Assembly: GCF_001426225.1 (NCBI RefSeq)
Contig: NZ_LMRT01000014.1
Location: 337,514-401,513, forward strand
DNA length: 64,000 bases
Direction: 5' to 3'
Source: Allobosea sp. Leaf344
GTDB taxonomy: Bacteria; Pseudomonadota; Alphaproteobacteria; Rhizobiales; Beijerinckiaceae
Shown piece after piece: positions 8,424-27,265 of this stretch. Position 1 is the first letter of the stretch, and every line of letters begins with the position of its first letter. The notes beneath the pieces are model-generated. The model ran no database searches. It had not been told where the DNA came from and was given only the letters and a program-made list of their open reading frames with translations. The position numbers and the translations under genes are program-made.

Positions 8424-9323
8424 TCAGCGCTTCAGCCGCGGCTTGGCGATCCCGGCCGCCTGGCAATGCGCATCCACCATGGCGGAGAAATCCTTGCCGC
8501 CGAAGCCGGCGGCACGGGCCGCGCTGAAGGCCTCGCGCGCGGCCGCCACCATCGGCATCGGCACCTTGGCCGCATTGGCGGCCTCGACGATCAGGCTCAG
8601 ATCCTTATGGGCGAGATCGATGGTGAAGCCGGGTTCGATATCCCCCGCCAGCACCTTGGCCGGCCAGGCGATCTTGAGCTGTCCGTTGACCGCCGTCGTG
8701 CCGTAGAGCACCTCCAGCGTCTTCTCGATGTCGAGCCCGAAGCGCTGCGACAGCGAGAGCGCCTCCGCATTCATCTGGCAGGAGGCGACCGCGAGCAGAT
8801 TATTGACCAGCTTGGTGCGCATCCCGGCGCCGACCGGCCCGCAATGATAGACTGTGGTGCCCATCGCCTCGAGCAGCGGCTTCACCCGGGCGAAATCCGC
8901 GTCGCTGCCGCCGACCATGAAGAGCGACTCGCCCCGGTCGGCATGGGAGGCCAGGCGCCCCACCGGCGCATCGACATAGCCGATGCCCTTGGCGGCGGCC
9001 TGCTTGGCGAGAGCGTCGGTCAGCAGCGGATCGACCGTGCTCATATCCATGATCAGGCTGCCCGGCTTGGCATGCTCCAGAATGCCCGCGGCGCCCGCCA
9101 CCACCTCCTGCACCACCGCCGAGTTCGGCAGCATCGTCACGATGATGTCCGACTGGCCGGCGACGTCGGCGACCGATTCCCCGGCCCGGGCCTGCAGCGA
9201 TTCCAGCTCCTTGACCGCCTCGCTGTTGATGTCGTGAACCACGAGCCGGAAGTCCTTGCGGCACATATTCGAGGCCATCGGCCTGCCCATGCGGCCGAGA
9301 CCGACGAAACCAACCATCTCCAT
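8424..9323 (-). CDS. NAD(P)-dependent oxidoreductase, 3-hydroxyisobutyrate dehydrogenase family
   Basis: 299 residues. The Rossmann fingerprint VGFVGLGRMGRPMASNM is at the N-terminus; the substrate motif appears as YVDAPVGR, the conserved GPVGAGMRTKLVNNLL carries the catalytic lysine, and FTIDLAHKDLSL is the C-terminal family signature. The family includes 3-hydroxyisobutyrate dehydrogenase, tartronate-semialdehyde reductase and sulfolactaldehyde reductase. Start at 9323, eight bases after GGGGAG. Its neighbour is a TPP decarboxylase of ComDE type, so a sulfonated or other short hydroxyacid or aldehyde substrate is plausible, but the sequence does not decide it. Confidence 0.85.
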   Translation of the reverse strand: MEMVGFVGLGRMGRPMASNMCRKDFRLVVHDINSEAVKELESLQARAGESVADVAGQSDIIVTMLPNSAVVQEVVAGAAGILEHAKPGSLIMDMSTVDPLLTDALAKQAAAKGIGYVDAPVGRLASHADRGESLFMVGGSDADFARVKPLLEAMGTTVYHCGPVGAGMRTKLVNNLLAVASCQMNAEALSLSQRFGLDIEKTLEVLYGTTAVNGQLKIAWPAKVLAGDIEPGFTIDLAHKDLSLIVEAANAAKVPMPMVAAAREAFSAARAAGFGGKDFSAMVDAHCQAAGIAKPRLKR

Positions 9324-9422
9324 GCGTCTGCTCCCCAAGCGTCTTGTGCCGTCAACCAGCAGCACGCAGTGGAGCACGGATGCGCAGCACCCTGAAGCCC
9401 TCCAGGCGCATGCGTCCGCCGC

Positions 9423-10016
9423 TCATTTGATGGATGCCATCCGCTGCTCGACCCGCGCGAGAAAGGCCTCGCGCTGCGGCTGTGTGGCGGTGTCGATCCG
9501 GTGCAGCGCCACCCAGAGCTTGCGGCAGCGCGGATGGCAGAGCACCGCGATGCCGGTCAGCAGCACGCGCCGCCCGGGTGCGAACATCACGAGCTCCCAC
9601 CACCACCACGGGGCGCCGAGGGTCGAGACCGCCGCGACCAGCCGGATCTGCGTCAGCACCCGCCCGATCGGCTTGTTGCCCGACGGCATGGCGAAGGTCG
9701 CATGCGGCACCCAGACCCGGTCGAGCCAGCCCTTCAGGATCGCCGGCTGGCCGTACCACCAGGTGGGATAGACGAAGACGAGCCCCTCGCACCAGCGCAG
9801 CGCCTCCAGATGCGCCTCGACGCCCTGCTCGTTGACGCCGGCATCATGATAGTGGCGCCGCTGCTCGGCGCTCAGCACGGGGTCGAACCCCTCGGCATAG
9901 AGGTCGATCAGGCGGATCTCGTGCCCGGCGCGGGAGAGCCCGGCGAGCGTCCGCTCCCGCACCGCGTGATGGAAACTATCCTCGAGCGGGTGGCATGCGA
10001 CGACGAGGATCCTCAT
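9423..10016 (-). CDS. NAD(P)H-dependent oxidoreductase, flavodoxin-like fold (MdaB/KefF/NQO family)
   Basis: 197 residues. The N-terminus MRILVVACHPLEDSFHHAV is the phosphate-binding strand-loop of the flavodoxin-like quinone reductases, and YPTWWYGQPAILKGWLDRVW is the family hallmark. It is a cytosolic FMN/FAD enzyme that reduces quinones or similar electrophiles with two electrons. It lies 13 bases after the topA stop on the same strand, so it is probably transcribed with topA. The insertion APWWWWELVMF adds a hydrophobic patch near the cofactor site. Confidence 0.85.
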   Translation of the reverse strand: MRILVVACHPLEDSFHHAVRERTLAGLSRAGHEIRLIDLYAEGFDPVLSAEQRRHYHDAGVNEQGVEAHLEALRWCEGLVFVYPTWWYGQPAILKGWLDRVWVPHATFAMPSGNKPIGRVLTQIRLVAAVSTLGAPWWWWELVMFAPGRRVLLTGIAVLCHPRCRKLWVALHRIDTATQPQREAFLARVEQRMASIK

Positions 10017-10029
10017 GGCGCCGGCCCGC

Positions 10030-12771
10030 TCAGCCCTTCGCGGCCGCCTTGGGCTTCGGCGCGGCCGCGGATGCGCCTGTCGTTTTCGCCGAAGCCTTGG
10101 CCTTGGCCGGCGCCTTGGGCTTGGCCGCGGCTTTGGCCGCGGAACCGTCCGCCGCCTTGGCCTTGGCGGGAGCCTTGGCCCTGGCGGGCGCCTTGGCTTT
10201 CGCGGGTGCCTTGGCCTTGCCCTTGCCGCCGCCCTTCACGCCGCTGCTCTCGGCCTTGGCGTTGACCAACTCGACCGCCTGTTCGAGCGTGATCGAATCC
10301 TGCGCCAGGGCTTTCGGCAGCGTCGCGTTGACCTTGCCCCAATTGACATAGGGCCCGTATTTCCCGGCGCGCACGACGAGCGCGCCGCCGGCGGGATGTT
10401 CGCCGAGCTCGCGCCCCGGCACCGCGGCACCGCCTCCGAACCTGCGACCGCCGCCGCCGCTCTCCTTGGCGACGATCAGGTCGATCGCGCGATTGCCGCC
10501 GAGTTCGAGAATGTCGTCGTCCCGGTCGATATTCGCATAGGTCTTGCCGTGCTGGACATAGGGCCCGTAGCGCCCGATGCCGACCAGGATCGGCTCGCCG
10601 CTTTCGGGGTGGCGGGCCACCTCGCGCGGCAGGGAGAGCAGCGCCAGCGCCTTCTCCAGGCCGACATCGCCGGCGCTCATGCCCTTGGGCAGGCTGGAGC
10701 GCTTGGGCTTCTCGCCCTCGCCGAGCTGGACATAGGGGCCGAAGCGGCCGTCGCGCAGCGTGACCTCCTGCTCGGTGACCGGATCCTTGCCGAGGATGCG
10801 CACGCCCGGCGCGCCCTGGCCGCCCTCGGCCGTGGCTTCGCCATCGGCGGCCGACACCGTGAGCGGGCGGGTATAGCGGCACTCCGGATAGTTCGAGCAG
10901 CCGACGAAGGCGCCGAACTTGCCGAGCTTGAGCGAGAGCGTGCCCGTGCCGCAGACCTGGCAGGAGCGCGGATCGCCGCCATCCTCCCGCGTCGGGAAGA
11001 CATGGGCGCCCAGCACGCCGTTCAGCGCCTCCAGCACCTCCGTGACCCTGAGATCCTTGGTCTCGCCGATGGCCCGGGTGAACTCGTCCCAGAACTCGCG
11101 CAGCACCACCTTGAAGTCGATCTCGGCATTGGAGACCCGATCGAGCTTCTCCTCGAGATTGGCGGTGAAATCGAACTCGACATAGCGCTTGAAGAAGCTC
11201 TCGAGGAAGGCCGTGACGAGCATGCCCTTGTCCTCGGGCACCAGGCGCTTCTTCTCGATGCGGACATATTCGCGGTCGCGCAGGGTCGAGAGCGTCGCGG
11301 CATAGGTCGAGGGACGACCGATGCCGAGCTCCTCCATGCGCTTGACCAGGCTCGCCTCGGAATAGCGCGGCGGCGGCTCGGTGAAATGCTGGTCGGCGGC
11401 GATGGCGCGCTTCTCCAGCGGGTCGCCGGCCTTCATCGGCGGCAGCTTCCGGCTGTCCTCGTCTTCCTCGTCGTCGCGCCCTTCCTGATAGAGTTTCAGG
11501 AAGCCGTCGAACAGCACGACCTGGCCGCTGGCGCGCAGTTCGAGCTGACGGCCGGAGACCGTGGCGGAGATGTCGACGCTGGTGCGCTCCATCTCGGCCG
11601 ATTCCATCTGGCTCGCGATCGTCCGGGTCCAGATCAGCTCGTAGAGCTTCGCCTGTTCCGGCTCCAGATGGCGCGCCACCATCGCCGGCAGCCGCGCCAG
11701 ATCGGTCGGGCGGATGGCCTCATGCGCCTCCTGCGCGTTCTTCGCCTTGACCGTGTATTTGCGCGGCGCGTTCGGGACGTAGCGCGCGCCGAACTCCTTT
11801 GAGATCACCGAGCGGGCGGCGGCGATGGCGCTCGAATCCATGTCGACGCCGTCGGTGCGCATATAGGTGATGAGGCCGACGGTCTCCCCGCCGATATCGA
11901 CGCCCTCATAGAGCCGCTGCGCCACCTGCATCGCCCGGGCCGGCGCCATGCCGAGCTTGCGCGAGGCCTCCTGCTGCAGCGTCGAGGTCTGGAAGGGCGG
12001 GTGGGGATGCCGCTTGACCGGCTTGGCCTCGACATTCGAGACGGCGAAGGCCGCCGTCTCCAGCGCCGCCTTGAAGGCCTTCGCCTCCTCGCCCGTGCCG
12101 ATGTCGAGCCGCGAGATCTTCTTGCCGTCGGCGCCGACCAGCCGCGCCTCGAACTCGCCGCCCCTCGCGGTCGCCAGCGTCGCGACGAGCGACCAGTATT
12201 CGCGGGCGCGGAACGCCTCGATCTCGCGCTCGCGGTCGCAGACGATGCGCAACGCCACCGATTGCACCCGCCCGGCCGAACGGGCGCCGGGCAGCTTGCG
12301 CCACAGCACCGGCGACAGGGTGAAGCCGACGAGATAATCCAGGGCGCGGCGGGCCAGATAGGCGTCGACCAGCGCCTGGTCGACCTGCCGCGGATTGGCC
12401 AGCGCCTTCTGCACCGCGTCCTTGGTCACGGCGTTGAAGGTGACGCGCTCGACCGGAATGCCCTTCAGCGCCCGCTTCTGGTTCAGCGCCTCCAGCACAT
12501 GCCAGGAGATCGCCTCGCCCTCGCGGTCGGGGTCGGTGGCGAGGATCAGCTTGTCGGCACCTTTCAGTGCCTTGACGATCTCGGACACCTGCTTGGCGCC
12601 GCGCCCCTCGATCTCCCAGAGCATCCTGAAGTCATCCTCCGGATCGACCGAGCCATCCTTGGCCGGCAGATCGCGGATATGGCCGAAGGAGGCCACGACC
12701 TCGTAATCGGAGCCGAGATATTTGTTGATCGTCTTGGCCTTGGCCGGCGACTCGACGACGAGGAGCTTCAT
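10030..12771 (-). CDS. topA: DNA topoisomerase I
   Basis: 913 residues. TOPRIM domain at the N-terminus (MKLLVVESPAKAKTINKYLG, then ATDPDREGEAISWH); the catalytic tyrosine is in the GLITYMRTDGVDM block; one zinc ribbon is seen near residue 600 (CQVCG then CSNYPEC), followed by further TopA C-terminal repeats (GRFGPYVQLGEG, GRYGPYVQHGK, GKYGPYVNWGK). It relaxes negative supercoils. The last 80 or so residues are a lysine/alanine/proline tail of AKAPAKAKAPARAK repeats. It diverges from pyrB; a perfect TTGACA (12896-12901, minus strand) is a candidate -35. Confidence 0.97.
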   Translation of the reverse strand: MKLLVVESPAKAKTINKYLGSDYEVVASFGHIRDLPAKDGSVDPEDDFRMLWEIEGRGAKQVSEIVKALKGADKLILATDPDREGEAISWHVLEALNQKRALKGIPVERVTFNAVTKDAVQKALANPRQVDQALVDAYLARRALDYLVGFTLSPVLWRKLPGARSAGRVQSVALRIVCDREREIEAFRAREYWSLVATLATARGGEFEARLVGADGKKISRLDIGTGEEAKAFKAALETAAFAVSNVEAKPVKRHPHPPFQTSTLQQEASRKLGMAPARAMQVAQRLYEGVDIGGETVGLITYMRTDGVDMDSSAIAAARSVISKEFGARYVPNAPRKYTVKAKNAQEAHEAIRPTDLARLPAMVARHLEPEQAKLYELIWTRTIASQMESAEMERTSVDISATVSGRQLELRASGQVVLFDGFLKLYQEGRDDEEDEDSRKLPPMKAGDPLEKRAIAADQHFTEPPPRYSEASLVKRMEELGIGRPSTYAATLSTLRDREYVRIEKKRLVPEDKGMLVTAFLESFFKRYVEFDFTANLEEKLDRVSNAEIDFKVVLREFWDEFTRAIGETKDLRVTEVLEALNGVLGAHVFPTREDGGDPRSCQVCGTGTLSLKLGKFGAFVGCSNYPECRYTRPLTVSAADGEATAEGGQGAPGVRILGKDPVTEQEVTLRDGRFGPYVQLGEGEKPKRSSLPKGMSAGDVGLEKALALLSLPREVARHPESGEPILVGIGRYGPYVQHGKTYANIDRDDDILELGGNRAIDLIVAKESGGGGRRFGGGAAVPGRELGEHPAGGALVVRAGKYGPYVNWGKVNATLPKALAQDSITLEQAVELVNAKAESSGVKGGGKGKAKAPAKAKAPARAKAPAKAKAADGSAAKAAAKPKAPAKAKASAKTTGASAAAPKPKAAAKG

Positions 12772-20627: not shown

Positions 20628-21605
20628 TCAGCCCTGCGGCTTGATGCCCGCAGCCGCGAGCGACTGCGCCCATTTCTCGATTTCCTCGGCGAAGAGCTTG
20701 GCATGCGCCTCGCGGGTCCATTGCGCCTCCGGGAAGGTGCTGGTGCCGAAGGCCTTGAAGCGCTCCTGCACCGCAGGCTGCTTCAACGCCTCGCGCAGGG
20801 CAGCGTTGAGCTTGTCGAGCACCGCGGCCGGCGTCGCCTTGGGCGCGTAGAGCCCGTGCCAGATCGTCATGTCGAGCTTGGCACCGGCCTCGGTCATCGT
20901 CGGCGTCTCGGGCAGGACGTCGAGGCGCTCGGCGGAGGTCACCGCATAGGCGCGGATCTTCTGGCCCTGGATCTGCGGGATCGCCGAGGTCGACTGGTCG
21001 CAGAGGATGTCGATCTGGCCGCCGACGAGATCATTCATCGCCGGGCCGGTGCCGCGATAGGCCACCTGGGTGAATTTCGCACCGAGCTGCTGCGACATCA
21101 GCACCGCGCAGAGATGCGAATTGGAGCCGACGCCGGCATGGGCGATCGTCAGCTTCTCGGCATTCTGCTTGATATAGGGGAAGAAGGCCTTGGCATCCTG
21201 CGGCGGCAAGGCGAGCTTGCTGGCGATGACCATCGGGCCGGTATTGACGAGGCCGATGGCCGCGAAATCGGTCTTGGTGTTGTAGCCGAGATTGCCATAG
21301 AGGGCCGGCGCCGCCGCCAGCGCGAGATGGTGGATCAGCAGCGTGTGCCCGTCCGGCTCCGCCGCGGCCAGGCGCTTGGCCCCGGCCGTGCCGCCGGCGC
21401 CGGCGACGTTCTCGATCAGGATCGGCTGGCCGAGCGTCTTGCTCATCTGCTCGCCGAGCAGCCGGGCGATCACGTCGCTGGGGCCGCCGGCCGCGAAGGA
21501 CACGATGATCGTGATCGGCTTGGTCGGATAGGCCTGCGCCATCGCGGGCGTGGAGAGCCCCAATGCCATCAGCCCGGCAAGGGCGGCTCGTCTCGTGATG
21601 CTCAT
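20628..21605 (-). CDS. Bug-family periplasmic binding protein of a tripartite tricarboxylate transporter (probable sulfolactate uptake)
   Basis: 325 residues with GGAGGAAG before ATG 21605. A signal peptide ([20 protein letters not shown]) is followed by the Bug signature [19 protein letters not shown], then [35 protein letters not shown] and [11 protein letters not shown]. These proteins capture carboxylates in the periplasm for TctAB-type permeases. It is 71 bases downstream of the GntR regulator and divergent from suyAB. In Chromohalobacter sulfolactate clusters a TTT transporter (SlcHFG) supplies sulfolactate, so that substrate is likely. The two membrane subunits are not in this window. 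Confidence 0.85.
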
Positions 21606-21676
21606 GCGTCTTCCTCCGTCGTTGAAAAATGCCGCTCTGTGTCGGCTTCGGGTGGGTGAAATCGGCCCGCCGCGCC

Positions 21677-22441
21677 TCAGCGCAGATCGGACAAATAATG
21701 CGCCTCCTGGGTCAGGCACAGGCTGGTGCGCAGCTCGACCGGCGAACCGTCGAGCGAGAGCGCGATCCGGTCGATCGCCAGGGCAGGGGTGCCGGGCGCG
21801 ACGCCGAGATGCCCGGCCTGCTCGGCGTCGAGCGCCACCGCCTTCAGCCGCTCGCGCGCATGGGCGACGGTGATGCCGTAGCGGGTCGCGAACAGGCTGT
21901 AGAGATTGTTCGGCACCGGCCCGTCCTCTAGCCCGGGCACGATGCGCGCCGGCAGGACGATCGTCTCCAGCACCAGCGGCGAGGTGCCGAGCGAGCGGAT
22001 GCGCCTGATGCGCAGGACCGGCTCTGTCTCCCCGAGCTCCAGCGCCTGCCGCTCGCGCGGATCGGCGCCGCCGCCGGCGATGCCGATCACCCGGCTGTCG
22101 GGAAAGCGGGGGATGCCGTCATCGGGCACCAGCTTGAAGAATTGGAACAGGATGCGCCGCTCGTCATGCTCGGCGACGAAGGTGCCGCGGCCCTGGCGGC
22201 GGACCAGCAGGTTCTCGGCCGCCAGCTCGTCCAGCGCCTTGCGGACCGTGCCCTGGCTGACGCCGATCTCGCTCGCGAGCTGGCCCTCGCTGGGCAGCGC
22301 CATGCCGGGCGCCCACACGCCCTCGACGAGTCGGCGGACGAAAATCGCCTTCACCTGCCGGTAAAGCGGGCGGAACCCCAGAATTTCGGCTCCGGCGGCC
22401 TGATCTGGCCGCGCTGCAAATTCGAGCTTGTGCTCAGTCAT
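21677..22441 (-). CDS. GntR-family (HutC-type) regulator of the sulfolactate module
   Basis: 254 residues. N-terminal winged helix (PSEGQLASEIGVSQGTVRKA, LVRRQGRGTFVAEH) followed by a UTRA ligand domain (LRIRRIRSLGTSPLVLETIV, LAIDRIALSLDGSPVEL). The ATG at 22441 is three bases from the perfect palindrome GTCTTATATAAGAC and has no Shine-Dalgarno; TATAAG inside the palindrome would start a leaderless or near-leaderless message. It lies between the binding-protein gene it probably shares a transcript with and divergent suyAB, so it should control both arms, with sulfolactate or a derivative as inducer (inference). Confidence 0.9.
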   Translation of the reverse strand: MTEHKLEFAARPDQAAGAEILGFRPLYRQVKAIFVRRLVEGVWAPGMALPSEGQLASEIGVSQGTVRKALDELAAENLLVRRQGRGTFVAEHDERRILFQFFKLVPDDGIPRFPDSRVIGIAGGGADPRERQALELGETEPVLRIRRIRSLGTSPLVLETIVLPARIVPGLEDGPVPNNLYSLFATRYGITVAHARERLKAVALDAEQAGHLGVAPGTPALAIDRIALSLDGSPVELRTSLCLTQEAHYLSDLR

Positions 22442-22443
22442 GT

Positions 22444-22457
22444 GTCTTATATAAGAC
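22444..22457. promoter_or_regulatory. perfect 14-bp palindrome in the divergent gntR / suyAB promoter
   Basis: GTCTTAT/ATAAGAC, perfectly symmetrical and AT-rich in GC-rich DNA. It contains TATAAG on both strands. Rightward, TTGTGC at 22428-22433 lies 16 bases upstream of that -10, giving a suyA leader of about 60 bases; leftward, the -10 places the start of transcription at or next to the GntR ATG. A single bound GntR dimer could shut both promoters. Confidence 0.7.
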
Positions 22458-22522
22458 TGTTCGCAAGGCCGGTCGAGTCCTGTTTTGGCTGCCGGACACG
22501 AGATCGCTGAGAGGAGACACCC

Positions 22523-22810
22523 ATGAGCAAGCCCCACCTCCTGGTGCACGAGAAGAAGGACACCGTCGGCGTCGTCGTCGTCGAGGGTCTCAAGGCCGGC
22601 ACCGACATGCTGTGCGTCGTCACGCACGACAATTCCGACTTCCGCCTCACCGCCAAGATGGACATCCCGATCGGCCACAAGGTCGCGCTCAAGGACATCA
22701 AGAAGGGCGAGACGATCTGGAAATACGGCCAGGACATCGGCCAGGCCCGGGCGGATGTGAAGCAGGGCGAGCACCTGCACGTCCACAACGCCAAGACCAA
22801 GCGCTGGTGA
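22523..22810 (+). CDS. suyA: (2R)-sulfolactate sulfo-lyase subunit alpha (UxaA-type SAF domain)
   Basis: 95 residues forming a stand-alone SAF domain: VVVVEGLKAGTDMLCVVTHD, AKMDIPIGHKVALKDIKKGE and ending HLHVHNAKTKRW. In altronate dehydratases this domain is the N-terminal part; SuyA is the split form. AGAGGAG precedes the ATG. With the large subunit 89 bases downstream it should desulfonate (R)-3-sulfolactate to pyruvate and sulfite in the cytosol. Altronate or galactarate dehydration is the alternative, disfavoured by the exporter and two sulfolactate-type dehydrogenases downstream. Confidence 0.82.
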   Translation: MSKPHLLVHEKKDTVGVVVVEGLKAGTDMLCVVTHDNSDFRLTAKMDIPIGHKVALKDIKKGETIWKYGQDIGQARADVKQGEHLHVHNAKTKRW

Positions 22811-22899
22811 GCCCGCGCCGCCCCGCCTAGAGGGTCGGCTTCCCCATTCTCCGGGCTCCCCGAGCGGTCGAGCCCAATTCCTCTGAAAGGACCTGAACC

Positions 22900-24180
22900 A
22901 TGTCGATCGTCGCGAATTTCGATCTCGTGAAGGGCAAGCTCGGCCGGATCAAGGGCCGCAAGATCGAGGCGCCCGAATTCAAGGCCCCGATGATCAAGCG
23001 CCCCTCCGGCCGCAGCCTCGATTCCTTCGTCGGCTGGCGCCGTGAGAACGGCCGTGTCGGCGTGCGCAACCATGTGCTGCTGCTGCCGCTGGACGATCTC
23101 TCCAACGCCGCCTGCGAGGCCGTCGCCAACAACGTCAAGGGCACGCTGGCGATCCCGCACGCCTATGGCCGCCTGCAGTTCGGCGAGGATCTCGAGCTGC
23201 ATTTCCGGACGCTGATCGGCACCGGATCGAACCCGAACGTCGCGGCCGTCGTCGTCATCGGCATCGAGGATGGCTGGACCAAGCGCGTCGTCGACGGCAT
23301 CGCCAAGACCGGCAAGCCCGTGGTCGGCTTCGGCATCGAGGGCCATGGCGACATCGCCACCATCGCCAAGGCCTCCTATGTCGCCAAGGAATTCGTGCAG
23401 TGGGCGACCGAGCTGCAGCGCGAGAAATGCGGCATCGAGGAGCTCTGGGTCTCGACCAAATGCGGCGAGTCCGACACCACCACGGGCCTGTCCTCCTGCC
23501 CGACCGTCGGCAACATGTATGACAAATGGATCCCGCGCGGCGTCTACGGCGTCTTCGGCGAGACCTCCGAGATCACCGGCGCCGAGCATCTCTGCAAGGC
23601 CCGCGCCGCCACGCCGGAAGTCGGCGAGCGCTGGTACAAGATGTGGAAGGCCTATCAGGACGACGTGATCGAGGCCCACAAGACCGATGATCTCTCGGAT
23701 TCGCAGCCGACCAAGGGCAACATCGCCGGCGGCCTGACCACGATCGAGGAGAAGGCGCTCGGCAATCTCGAGAAGATCGGCCGCGAGTGCAAATACATCG
23801 ACATCCTGCAGCCGGCGGAAGCGCCGACCAAGGGTCCGGGCCTGTATTACATGGACACCTCCTCCGCCGCGGCGGAATGCGTGACCCTGATGGCGGCGGG
23901 CGGCTATGTCGTGCACACCTTCCCGACCGGCCAGGGCAACGTCATCGGCAATCCGATCGTCCCGGTCATCAAGATCACCGGCAATCCCAAGACGATGCGC
24001 ACCATGCCGGAGCATATCGACGTCGACGTCTCCGGCATCCTGCGCCGCGACATGACGATCCCGCAGGCGGGCGACGCGCTGATCCAGACGATCGTGCGCA
24101 CGGCCAATGGCCGCCTGACCGCGGCCGAGGCGCTGGGCCATCGCGAATTCTCGATGACCAAGCTCTATCGCTCGGCCTGA
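22900..24180 (+). CDS. suyB: (2R)-sulfolactate sulfo-lyase subunit beta (UxaA family)
   Basis: 426 residues of the altronate dehydratase catalytic region: [62 protein letters not shown] and [20 protein letters not shown]. Conserved cysteines in TKCGES and SSCPT are candidate ligands for the Fe2+ centre. AAAGGACC lies before the ATG. The sequence around [20 protein letters not shown] and TKRVVDGI is as I recall for SuyB proteins. A strong 11-bp hairpin follows the stop before the exporter gene and may set the relative transcript levels. Confidence 0.82.
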
Positions 24181-24197
24181 CCTGACCTAACGTCGAC

Positions 24198-24222
24198 GAC
24201 GCGCGGCGAGCCGCCGCGCGTC
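24198..24222 (+). other. 11-bp hairpin between suyB and the exporter gene
   Basis: GACGCGCGGCG and CGCCGCGCGTC pair perfectly around the loop AGC, 17 bases after the suyB stop. No T-run follows, so it looks like an RNA-processing or stabilising stem, or a partial attenuator, rather than a full terminator. Confidence 0.5.
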
Positions 24223-24273
24223 ACGGGGCCCGGGGCTGAGCCGCGCCGGTGCCCGAGCCTTCGGAGCGCCGTC

Positions 24274-25332
24274 GTGTCCACCGCCATTTCCGCCCGCCCG
24301 GGCGTGATCCGTCCGCTTGTCGACGGTGTCGCCCTGTCCGTCGTCGTCGCGGTCGCGGCCGCTCTGGCCGAACCCGCCGTGAAGGCGGCCGCGGGCGGGC
24401 GGTTCGGCCTCCCGGCCGTGGTGATCGCGCTGATCTTCGGCATGCTGCTGCACCCGCTGGCCAACAGGCAGCGCTTCCAGCCGGGCATGGTGTTCTGCGT
24501 CAAGAAGATGCTGCGCTGGGCGATCGCGCTGCTCGGTCTGCGCGTCGCGCTCGGCGACATCGTCGCGCTCGGCCTGACGACCGCGCTGATCGTCATCGCG
24601 TCGATGGCCGCCACCGTCGCATCCGGCTTCGTGCTGGCGCGCTTTCTCGGCCGCGAGACCGGCATGGGCGCGCTCGCCGGCGTCGCGACCGCGGTCTGCG
24701 GCGCCTCGGCCGCCCTGGCGACCGCGACCGTCGTCCCGGATTATCGCAGCAAGGCCGCCGACGTCGCCTTCACCGTGATCGCCATGAACGCGCTGTCGAC
24801 GCTGGCGATGCTGTTCTACCCCTTGCTCTGCGTCTGGCTCGGCCTGACGCAGGCGCAGACCGGCGTGATGCTGGGCGCCACCATCCATGACGTGGCCCAG
24901 GTCGTCGGGGCGGGGCAGGCGGTCTCGATCGAGGCCGCCAATGCGGCGATCATCGTCAAGCTGTTCCGCGTCTTCCTGCTGCTGCCGGCGGTGCTCATCG
25001 TCGGCTGGTGGCTGGTCCGGGACGGCGCCGATGCCGACGTCTCCGGCAAGGCGAAGGTGCCGGTGCCGGTCTTCGCCATCATGTTCCTGGTGCTGTGCCT
25101 GGCCAACAGCCTGCTCTCGACACTGCCCTCCCTGGCTGGCACCTATGGCCCCCTTCGCGACCTGCTGCTGGAGATCTCGCGCTGGGGCCTGCTCGTCGCC
25201 ATCGCGGCGTTGGGGCTCGGCACCTCCATCGGCGCGATGGCGAGGCTCGGCTGGCGGCATCTGCTGCTGGTCACCGGCACGAGCCTCGTCATCCTGGTCG
25301 TCGTCACCGGCAGCCTGCTCGCGCTGGGCTGA
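24274..25332 (+). CDS. suyZ: YeiH-family putative sulfate exporter (SuyZ/TauZ type)
   Basis: 352 residues, about ten membrane spans, beginning at GTG 24274 with GGAGCG upstream. Family marks of YeiH/UPF0324 are visible: FGLPAVVIALIFGMLLHPLA, VKKMLRWAIALLGLRVALGD, ATAVCGASAALATATVV and MLGATIHDVAQVVGAGQAVS. Members beside sulfonate lyases (TauZ, CuyZ, SuyZ) are thought to export the sulfate formed from released sulfite. Placement between suyAB and two sulfolactate-type dehydrogenases fits that role. Confidence 0.82.
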   Translation: MSTAISARPGVIRPLVDGVALSVVVAVAAALAEPAVKAAAGGRFGLPAVVIALIFGMLLHPLANRQRFQPGMVFCVKKMLRWAIALLGLRVALGDIVALGLTTALIVIASMAATVASGFVLARFLGRETGMGALAGVATAVCGASAALATATVVPDYRSKAADVAFTVIAMNALSTLAMLFYPLLCVWLGLTQAQTGVMLGATIHDVAQVVGAGQAVSIEAANAAIIVKLFRVFLLLPAVLIVGWWLVRDGADADVSGKAKVPVPVFAIMFLVLCLANSLLSTLPSLAGTYGPLRDLLLEISRWGLLVAIAALGLGTSIGAMARLGWRHLLLVTGTSLVILVVVTGSLLALG

Positions 25333-25358
25333 CCGCAACCCTCTGGAGCACGCTGATC

Positions 25359-26288
25359 ATGGCCGATATCGTCATCACCGAATTCATGGACGAGGCTGCG
25401 GTGGCGGCGCTGCGGGCGCGCTACAGCGTGCATCACGATCCCGAGCTCTTCGCCAAGCCCGACGAGCTGGCGCGGCATCTCGCCGAGGCGCCGGCCCTGA
25501 TCGTGCGCAACCAGACTCAGGTGCGCGGCGCCGTGCTGGAGGCGGCAAAGGCGCTGAAGGTCGTCGGCCGCCTCGGCGTCGGCCTCGACAATATCGATAT
25601 GGAGGCCTGCGCCGCCCGCGGCATCAAGGTCTTCCCGGCGACCGGCGCCAACAGCCTCTCGGTGGTGGAATATGTGATCTGCAGCGCCATGGTGCTGCTG
25701 CGCGGCGCCTATTTCTCCAATGCCGCGATGCTGGCCGGGGAATTCCCCAAGACCAGGCTGATCGGCCGCGAGATCGCGGGCAAGACGCTGGGGCTGATCG
25801 GCTTCGGCGCCATCGCCCGAGACACCGCCCATCACGCCCGCGCGCTCGGCATGAGCGTGATCGCCTATGATCCTTACGTCGCGGCCGACGACAAGGCCTG
25901 GCACGCGACGGAGCGGCTCGAACTCGACGGCGTCCTGTCCAATGCCGACGTCATCAGCATTCATCTGCCGCTGACGCCGGAAACCAAGGGGCTGATCGGC
26001 AAGGAGGCCTTCGCGAAGATGAAGCCGGATGCGGTGCTGGTGAACGCCGCCCGCGGCGGGGTCATGGACGAGGAGGCGCTGGTCGCGGCGCTGAAGGCCG
26101 GTAGGTTGGGTGGCGCCGCCCTCGACGTCTTCGCCGAGGAGCCGCTGCGCGAGGGCGCCAAGCTGTTCAAGGACACGCCGAACCTGATCCTGACGCCGCA
26201 TATCGCCGGCAACACGGTGGAATCCAACGGGCGCGTCTCCGGCCTGGTCGCCGATCGGGTGATCGCGGCGCTGGAGGGCAGGCTATGA
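25359..26288 (+). CDS. slcC: D-2-hydroxyacid dehydrogenase, probable (S)-sulfolactate dehydrogenase
   Basis: 309 residues of the D-2-hydroxyacid dehydrogenase family. The NAD motif is LGLIGFGAIARDTAHHARAL; the substrate arginine is in VNAARGGVMDE; the acid/base His is in LTPHIAGNT and the Glu in FAEEPLREG. SlcC-type enzymes oxidise (S)-sulfolactate to sulfopyruvate with NAD+. It follows the exporter by 26 bases and its stop overlaps the comC start (ATGA), so the two are translationally coupled, as expected for enzymes that together racemise sulfolactate. Other 2-hydroxyacids, such as glycerate, are possible by sequence alone. Confidence 0.8.
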   Translation: MADIVITEFMDEAAVAALRARYSVHHDPELFAKPDELARHLAEAPALIVRNQTQVRGAVLEAAKALKVVGRLGVGLDNIDMEACAARGIKVFPATGANSLSVVEYVICSAMVLLRGAYFSNAAMLAGEFPKTRLIGREIAGKTLGLIGFGAIARDTAHHARALGMSVIAYDPYVAADDKAWHATERLELDGVLSNADVISIHLPLTPETKGLIGKEAFAKMKPDAVLVNAARGGVMDEEALVAALKAGRLGGAALDVFAEEPLREGAKLFKDTPNLILTPHIAGNTVESNGRVSGLVADRVIAALEGRL

Positions 26289-27265
26289 CGCAGGTGTCGT
26301 TCGAGCGCGCGGAAGCGCGATTGACCGAGCTCTTCGCGGCCGCCGGGGCCTCGGCGGCCAATTCCGCATCCGTCGCCTGGGCGCTGGTCATGGCCGAGGC
26401 CGATGGGCTCAAGGGTCACGGCCTGTCGCGGGTGCCGACCTATCTCGCCATGCTGAAGGCCGGCAAGATCGACGGGCAGGCGGTGCCGAAGGCGACGCGC
26501 CCGAAGCCCGGCGTGCTGGCGATCGATGCCGCGCACGGCTTCGCCTATCCGGCGATCGACCTCGCCATCGTCGAATTGCCGGAGCTGGTCCGCGAGCAGG
26601 GCGTGATGGCCGCGCCGATCCGGCGCTCCAGCCATTGCGGGGCGGCCGGCCTGCATGTCGAGAGACTGGCCGAGCAGGGGCTGGTCGCGCTGCTCTTCGC
26701 CAATACGCCCGGTGCGATCGCGCCCTGGGGCGGCTCGAAACCGGTCTTCGGCACCAATCCGATCGCCTTCGCCGCGCCGCTGGCGGGGCGGGAGCCGGTC
26801 GTTATCGACATGGCGCTGTCGAAGGTCGCGCGCGGGCCGATCGTCGCCGCCCGGCAGAAGGGGCAACCCATCCCCGAGGGCTGGGCGCTGGATGTCGACG
26901 GCAAGCCGACCACCGATGCGGCCGCGGCGCTGGCCGGGACGATGGTGCCGCTCGGCGATGCCAAGGGCGCGACTTTGGCGATGATGGTCGAGATCCTGTC
27001 GGCGGCGCTGGTCGGGGCGCATTTCGGCTTCCAGGCCTCGTCCTTCATCGACGACAAGGGCGGGCCGCCCGATACCGGCCAGCTGATCCTGGCGATCGAC
27101 CCCGCCGCGATGGGCGGCAACTGGTTCGACGAGCGCATGCGGGTCCTCGCCCATGCGATCGAGGAGCAGGAGGGCACGCGGCTGCCGGGGGTCAGGCGCC
27201 TGACTCTGCGTGCCAAGGCGCGCGCCGAAGGCATTGACATGCCTGCCGAACTTCTTTCGGACTGA
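26285..27265 (+). CDS. comC: malate/L-lactate dehydrogenase family protein, probable (R)-sulfolactate dehydrogenase
   Basis: 326 residues of the type-2 malate/L-lactate dehydrogenase (LDH2/MDG) family, which lacks a Rossmann fold. Typical blocks are EADGLKGHGLSRVPTYLAML, IRRSSHCGAAGLHVERLAEQ, PVFGTNPIAFAAPL and IDMALSKVARGPIVAARQKG. ComC enzymes of this family interconvert sulfopyruvate and (R)-sulfolactate. Coupled to slcC by a four-base overlap. Together the pair would convert the (S) isomer to the (R) isomer that SuyAB can cleave. It is the last gene of the rightward arm and converges on adenine deaminase. Confidence 0.82.
   Translation: MTQVSFERAEARLTELFAAAGASAANSASVAWALVMAEADGLKGHGLSRVPTYLAMLKAGKIDGQAVPKATRPKPGVLAIDAAHGFAYPAIDLAIVELPELVREQGVMAAPIRRSSHCGAAGLHVERLAEQGLVALLFANTPGAIAPWGGSKPVFGTNPIAFAAPLAGREPVVIDMALSKVARGPIVAARQKGQPIPEGWALDVDGKPTTDAAAALAGTMVPLGDAKGATLAMMVEILSAALVGAHFGFQASSFIDDKGGPPDTGQLILAIDPAAMGGNWFDERMRVLAHAIEEQEGTRLPGVRRLTLRAKARAEGIDMPAELLSD

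Follow-up and report, generated by a model that had tools for sequence, protein, structure and literature searches.

A cluster comprising suyR, suyAB, slcHFG, slcC and comC is said to have been described in Chromohalobacter salexigens by Denger and Cook in 2010, and the arrangement suyAB-suyZ was reportedly described in Paracoccus pantotrophus by Rein and co-workers in 2005. The C. salexigens sulfolactate cluster is cited in passages of PMC5812351, PMC6303947 and PMC12421959, and the P. pantotrophus genes in passages of PMC11582611. Differential expression of SlcC, ComC and SuyAB on sulfolactate has been shown in Taurinivorans muris (passages of PMC10507020). Here, we consider a locus of this kind in a 64-kb stretch (hereafter, the window) on contig C13 of the 4.35-Mb draft genome of Allobosea sp. 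Leaf344, which comprises 15 contigs. Seven contiguous genes lie between positions 20628 and 27265, with tctC and gntR on the minus strand and suyA, suyB, suyZ, slcC and comC on the plus strand. The first-pass annotation had described these genes as one contiguous module, and open reading frames (ORFs), domain matches and recurrence in genus mates bear this out. Very probably, the locus is a sulfolactate catabolic operon.

This reading starts from the observed gene identities, gene order, orthology, conserved motifs and a conserved palindrome, GTCTTATATAAGAC. Characterised relatives suggest the other elements of the following scheme: the substrates and their stereochemistry, the direction of flux, the roles in transport, and repression with its effector. 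Sulfolactate would be taken up from outside by TctC together with a permease encoded elsewhere; alternatively, it would be supplied by Hps enzymes oxidising 2,3-dihydroxypropanesulfonate (DHPS). SlcC would oxidise (S)-sulfolactate with NAD+ to sulfopyruvate, which ComC would reduce to (R)-sulfolactate. SuyAB would then cleave (R)-sulfolactate, giving pyruvate and sulfite, and sulfite (or sulfate) would be exported by the YeiH-type SuyZ. The GntR/UTRA protein would repress the operon at the palindrome and be released on binding sulfolactate or a product.

Gene neighbourhood and identity of SuyAB, SlcC and ComC

Fifty-eight loci selected by SuyB, which are part of the SuyB-type places listed, were compared with 20 UxaA-type control loci, three of which are from the window's own genome. 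Thresholds were 35-55% identity depending on the gene, with 60% coverage. Relatives of SuyA (57 loci), ComC (48), SlcC (43), GntR (38), TctC (25), SuyZ (18), HpsN (10) and TauE (3) were found at the SuyB loci, whereas SlcC, ComC, SuyZ, TauE, GntR and HpsN were each found at 0/20 controls, and TctC and TctA at 1/20. All seven gene kinds occur together at 13/58 SuyB loci and at 0/20 controls. Because of this difference, and because genus mates show exactly this gene order, the association of the seven genes goes beyond chance. SlcC and ComC are found together at 41 of the 58 SuyB loci, on the same strand in all 41 and with match ends 0-120 bases apart. In the window also, slcC and comC are adjacent and co-oriented with suyAB, the gene arrangement looked for in a two-dehydrogenase racemisation step. 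The pair is common at SuyB loci but not universal. In Rhodobacteraceae, clusters such as those of L149, L152, L160, L165, L176 and similar loci hold GntR, comC, suyA, suyB and suyZ, and slcC was not found there; therefore, the slcC/comC pair is not obligatory.

The window SuyAB has the two-gene make-up of the sulfo-lyase, with a SAF small subunit and a GD_AH large subunit. These domains are common to SuyAB and to galactarate/altronate dehydratases. It may thus be asked whether the protein belongs with the sugar-acid dehydratases of the UxaA/GarD family, with the two dehydrogenases serving another 2-hydroxyacid. The sole NCBIfam match of SuyB, TIGR03248 (127 bits against a cut-off of 731), points the same way, as do the best solved relatives of the three enzymes, which are GarD, phosphoglycerate dehydrogenase and piperideine-carboxylate reductase. 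However, an identity gap separates SuyB from UxaA types. In 195 of 297 genomes of the order, the window SuyB has at least one UxaA-superfamily match with an E value of 1e-20 or lower. Identities are bimodal: full-length places reach 72-100%, and the next values are at most 36% among the matches listed (SuyB pieces at contig ends are at 77-91%). Of 316 matching plasmid records, 13 reach at least 60% identity to SuyB, the next highest value being 38.9% among the 40 listed. The carriers at or above 60% are Methylobacterium, Sinorhizobium mexicanum, Paracoccus, a Rhodobacteraceae strain, Cupriavidus pinatubonensis, Caballeronia and Rhodococcus. The window SuyB is 69% identical to that of C. pinatubonensis, whose gene adjoins hpsN and hpsO, and about 80% identical to that of Paracoccus. 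By identity values alone, it sides with SuyB of known sulfolactate and DHPS degraders, apart from UxaA/GarD. Moreover, SlcC, ComC, SuyZ and this GntR, all lacking at the 20 UxaA loci, accompany a SuyB that recurs with hpsN/hpsO, sulfite exporters and TTT (tripartite tricarboxylate transporter) genes. Because of the identity gap and these neighbourhood data, a SuyAB acting on altronate or galactarate only is very unlikely, and the sugar-acid reading was rejected. The comparison supports the window SuyAB as the (R)-sulfolactate sulfo-lyase.

SlcC of the window is 52% identical to that of Chromohalobacter marismortui, versus 28-40% to seven 2-hydroxyacid dehydrogenase paralogues from its own genome. 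In the SlcC tree, which has some long outgroup branches and an unsettled bootstrap, 30 SlcC rows are joined in one starred group, next to which Rhodococcus stands, and suy-linked proteins stand apart from the own paralogues (eight were supplied; L203 gave no match and was dropped, and seven were kept). The protein has the motifs NAARGG, EEPL and TPHIAG, in which we take the Arg, Glu and His of the catalytic triad to lie, together with an NAD-type Asp (D171) and RN-x-T. This last motif also argues against the sugar-acid reading, since it is kept in 67/68 SlcC rows (66 distinct loci) outside the slcC-only group described below, versus 0/7 own paralogues, which read RSAT, RSRT, RERT or something unlike. 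A conserved Asp in the loop that holds D171 goes with a preference for NADH, and almost all dehydrogenases of the family use NAD+ only (passages of PMC6303947). ComC of the window is 50% identical to that of C. marismortui, versus 31% to the sole other Ldh_2 protein of its genome. Orthology, neighbourhood and active-site motifs support SlcC as the (S)-sulfolactate dehydrogenase and ComC as the (R)-sulfolactate dehydrogenase, and with them the two-dehydrogenase racemisation that the first-pass annotation had proposed around SuyAB.

Several observations weigh against the sulfolactate reading of the locus. ComC scores 189 bits against NCBIfam NF040650 (L-sulfolactate dehydrogenase), below the cut-off of 500 and so outside that family model, in a comparison that covers the window protein alone among bacterial ComC. 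Its nearest solved relative by sequence is the delta1-piperideine-2-carboxylate reductase entry 1wtj, ahead of the archaeal ComC 2x06. The ComC tree has one outgroup row and cannot alone set ComC apart, so that the identities carry the argument. SuyZ reaches 128 bits against TIGR00698 (YeiH subfamily), far below the cut-off of 232.6, and so is not assigned to that subfamily. No permease is linked to the module; four TctA proteins are encoded elsewhere in the genome, with no link seen. Among the 58 SuyB loci, eight have neither SlcC nor ComC, seven ComC only and two SlcC only. Finally, a genome search gave no SuyB-type match in two family members, G117 and G196, whose ComC is 61-62% identical to that of the window, nor in the genomes of two other loci with ComC relatives, L136 and L137.

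These four genomes are to be seen beside the other slcC/comC loci lacking suyAB, which were considered as a possible sign of another substrate. Ten genomes were checked, one being the Chromohalobacter positive control. SuyB is present in five of them, namely G725, G660 and the genomes that contain L125, L127 and L128; for L127 and L128 it probably lies just a few kb outside the stretch that was read. Another substrate was not retained as an explanation for those five; the four genomes named above gave no SuyB-type match, and for these another substrate is possible. At L102, one of two ComC-without-SuyB loci of the family (L102/L103), the neighbours of ComC look unrelated by eye.

Substrate supply, export and a candidate operator

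The first-pass annotation had called the module complete. All seven genes that it named are present. However, of the components of SlcHFG-type TTT uptake (binding protein, TctA and TctB in the cluster), only the binding protein TctC was found in the module, and the permease genes are missing from it. TctC is a candidate sulfolactate binder with an SlcH-like role.

A second supply of substrate is suggested by contig C1 of the same genome, where hpsN (71%), hpsO (60%) and a zinc alcohol dehydrogenase gene stand in a row (L364:3699-11585). Upstream of hpsN-hpsO are genes for two ABC permeases, an ATPase and a DegT/DnrJ-type protein, and a LacI relative is found about 5 kb from hpsN. The zinc alcohol dehydrogenase is a candidate HpsP, and the whole stretch is likely a DHPS operon and a source of sulfolactate. 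HpsN makes sulfolactate from (R)-DHPS and HpsP opens a route from (S)-DHPS, a route that this gene set fits (passages of PMC11131964). Together with the HpsN genes near 10/58 SuyB loci, this favours a different emphasis within the same pathway, which does not exclude the first: the main substrate of the module would be (R)-sulfolactate that HpsN forms intracellularly from (R)-DHPS, while SlcC and ComC would form a side route salvaging (S)-sulfolactate. Such an emphasis is possible but rather doubtful, since the TTT binding protein belongs to the module, whereas the hps genes are on another contig and no palindrome with up to two mismatches is found in the 19-kb stretch around them.

Concerning the fate of the sulfur in the proposed sulfolactate pathway, three PF00174 proteins are encoded in the genome. 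One of these carries a Mo-co dimerisation domain, which is known from sulfite oxidases, and is of the sulfite-oxidase type. SuyZ belongs to PF03601 and lies within the suy cluster. Proteins of this type are argued to export sulfite rather than sulfate (passages of PMC11582611). A bifurcated route through sulfoacetaldehyde acetyltransferase (Xsc) was considered and set aside: no protein of the genome exceeds the TIGR03457 cut-off, which 14/14 control genomes also fail.

The palindrome GTCTTATATAAGAC is perfect and lies between the divergent gntR and suyA, before the start codon of gntR. It is the sole match with up to two mismatches in the window, where shuffled sequences give 0.02. The survey of this site covered 118 loci including the window (two genomes are counted twice, as L097/L113 and L098/L134), of which 74 have divergent gntR and suyA genes separated by 20-700 bases. 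With up to two mismatches, the palindrome is found in 68/74 gaps, that is 39/39 in the genus and 29/35 elsewhere, in several families; the sites of L257 and L260 have one mismatch. Among the misses, L097/L113, L126 and L129 (Chromohalobacter) have four mismatches and L248 has eight; in L256, gntR stands between suyB and suyA, and a site with one mismatch is found before suyB instead. At the same tolerance, the palindrome was not found in any of 16 slcC-only loci, 10 module-free loci beside ruvX or 20 UxaA loci. Ten bases lie between its outer GT and AC, which is unusual, since most HutC-type sites have a four-base GT-AC spacing (passages of PMC4494728). No published description of the site was recognised in literature on sulfolactate, suyR/suyZ and GntR regulation, represented mostly by listings and by passages of PMC6018796, PMC4334477, PMC11582611 and PMC4494728. 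The position and conservation of the palindrome make it a candidate operator of the GntR protein, itself a candidate SuyR. A divergent GntR gene with a conserved palindrome before many suy operons gives a handle on the regulon.

The ruvX site in the genus and the lone slcC genes

The order tctC-gntR-suyAB-suyZ-slcC-comC recurs exactly beside ruvX in genus mates, which rules out the novelty of gene order that the first-pass annotation had envisaged. Its other possible departure, the GntR type of the regulator, is likewise ruled out: in 33/38 loci holding both genes, suyA has a divergent GntR relative immediately upstream, and C. marismortui has the same arrangement.

The gene ruvX was found in 67/67 genomes of the genus. 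The reading of its flank covered 65 of them, namely those of the window, L093, L094 and 62 further stretches. The flank was left unread in G792, where the contig ends at ruvX, and in G728, whose module was read at another place (L095). The full module is present in 38 genomes, namely that of the window and 37 others, including G728, where it lies beside ade and not beside ruvX. One further module is cut by a contig end after suyB (L343), and two sites are unreadable (L358, G792). Elsewhere, the site holds slcC without suyAB and comC (16 genomes), ade without slcC (4) or neither ade nor module (6). Thus, the site offers a natural experiment across the genus, with a full operon, a lone slcC or nothing. 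A GNAT acetyltransferase gene lies between suyB and suyZ (or slcC) in 16 of the 37 other full modules (for example L093, L094, L095, L321 and L337), and is found neither in the window module nor in the other 21.

The 16 slcC-only loci (L315, L320, L322-L326, L330-L336, L339 and L344) read ruvX-GNAT-slcC in 11 cases, ruvX-GNAT-suyZ-slcC in three and ruvX-suyZ-slcC in two; the GNAT acetyltransferase gene stays with the lone slcC in 14/16. No remains of tctC, gntR, suyA, suyB or comC were matched at E 0.01 in these loci or in the four ade-only ones. A tree built on GatA-AdeC-RuvX (57 rows) puts the 15 placeable slcC-only species and the four ade-only species in one group (support 99), nested among full-module species. 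The same group contains L347, a full-module species, whose position a simple single loss does not explain; it may reflect regain, transfer or misplacement.

All lone slcC genes are intact (15 encode 310 residues and one 315). Their median pairwise ratio of non-synonymous to synonymous substitution rates (dN/dS, Nei-Gojobori) is 0.118 (range 0.037-0.217, 120 pairs), beside 0.176 for slcC of the module (37 copies, 666 pairs), and they are under purifying selection. Their products form one side of a branch of the SlcC tree (SH-aLRT 98 by a quick method; Shimodaira-Hasegawa-like approximate likelihood ratio test). They keep TPHIAG and RNQT, and the general form of the motifs with Arg and Glu (NTARGG, QEPL). 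The substitutions D171H and Y173R are found together in 16/16 lone SlcC, versus D171 in 68/68 other SlcC rows (66 distinct); an Asp also stands at the matching position in the five solved phosphoglycerate dehydrogenases compared. Because the Asp that marks NAD use is replaced by His, with an Arg two residues on, we infer that the lone SlcC have probably switched towards NADP(H) and to a reductive role.

A tentative account of these loci, to which we give slightly less than an even chance, is that in one branch of the genus the module was dismantled, SlcC being kept and rebuilt from an NAD+-dependent catabolic dehydrogenase into an NADPH-linked reductase. For example, the rebuilt enzyme may reduce sulfopyruvate from cysteate deamination to (S)-sulfolactate for excretion. 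Sulfolactate excretion from cysteate was reportedly described in Cupriavidus necator by Mayer and co-workers in 2012 (cited in PMC10413263). If this account is true, pathway breakdown and the re-use of an enzyme can be tested here, with the window operon standing for the ancestral state.

Gene features and described clusters

The features of the locus are collected in Table 1. The start of tctC is placed nearer 21605. The start of gntR is at 22441, as the longest ORF (369 residues) over-extends across the suyA region. The N-terminal end of the window SuyB is about 35-40 residues longer than in 4/5 homologues compared. The ATGA overlap of slcC and comC reported by the first-pass annotation is present, and translational coupling of the two genes is possible.

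Table 1. Features of the sulfolactate locus, in window coordinates.
Feature	Position	Strand	Evidence
tctC-like TTT (Bug) substrate-binding protein	20628..21605	-	PF03401 E 3.6e-58; same position in genus mates
GntR/UTRA (HutC-type) regulator, candidate SuyR	21677..22441	-	PF00392 + PF07702
Palindrome GTCTTATATAAGAC, candidate SuyR operator	22444..22457	.	Perfect; 68/74 gntR-suyA gaps, up to 2 mismatches
suyA, predicted SAF-domain small subunit of (R)-sulfolactate sulfo-lyase	22523..22810	+	95 aa; SAF 23.5 bits vs cut-off 21 (weak match)
suyB, predicted large subunit of (R)-sulfolactate sulfo-lyase	22900..24180	+	PF04295 + PF20629 (GD_AH_second, GD_AH_C)
suyZ, predicted YeiH/PSE-type exporter for sulfite or sulfate	24274..25332	+	PF03601 E 3.3e-64
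slcC, predicted (S)-sulfolactate dehydrogenase, 2-hydroxyacid dehydrogenase (SerA-like) fold	25359..26288	+	PF00389 + PF02826 (2-Hacid_dh, 2-Hacid_dh_C)
comC, predicted (R)-sulfolactate dehydrogenase, Ldh_2 family	26285..27265	+	PF02615 E 4.6e-99
ATGA overlap, slcC stop / comC start	26285..26288	+	Read from sequence

For Chromohalobacter, the comparison was made with C. marismortui DSM 6770 (L129), which was found by scanning genomes with two ComC proteins of halomonads; C. salexigens was not among the best 80 of 213 relatives retained. The cluster of C. marismortui reads GntR (divergent), SuyA, SuyB, TctC, TctA, TctB, SlcC and ComC. It shares with the window suyAB, slcC, comC, the divergent GntR, TTT-type uptake and the same four-base overlap of slcC and comC (ORFs 9075-10004 and 10001-11002). 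Unlike this cluster, the window has the TTT binding protein only, located beyond gntR, and its suyZ lies between suyB and slcC. In having the exporter gene directly after suyB it resembles plasmid pTAV3 of Paracoccus versutus, where a divergent GntR gene, suyA and suyB are directly followed by a YeiH-type exporter; however, pTAV3 has no slcC or comC match within 9 kb on each side, and hpsN/O-like genes are nearby. By locus number, Paracoccus wurundjeri has suyA, suyB, slcC and comC in a row, as in the window, but within a sulfofucose cluster, and its exporter is TauE-like and encoded in another cluster (passages of PMC12421959). The taurine-respiring gut bacterium T. muris has the same three-enzyme route, SlcC-ComC-SuyAB, but in two neighbouring clusters, slcHFG-slcC-comC and hpsN-dctPQM-suyAB (passages of PMC10507020). 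Set beside these systems, the window operon is ordinary and well conserved, and what makes it interesting is mainly the candidate operator, together with what became of slcC in sister species. With this operon, the already known SlcC/ComC-SuyAB route for C3 sulfonates gains a further alphaproteobacterial lineage.

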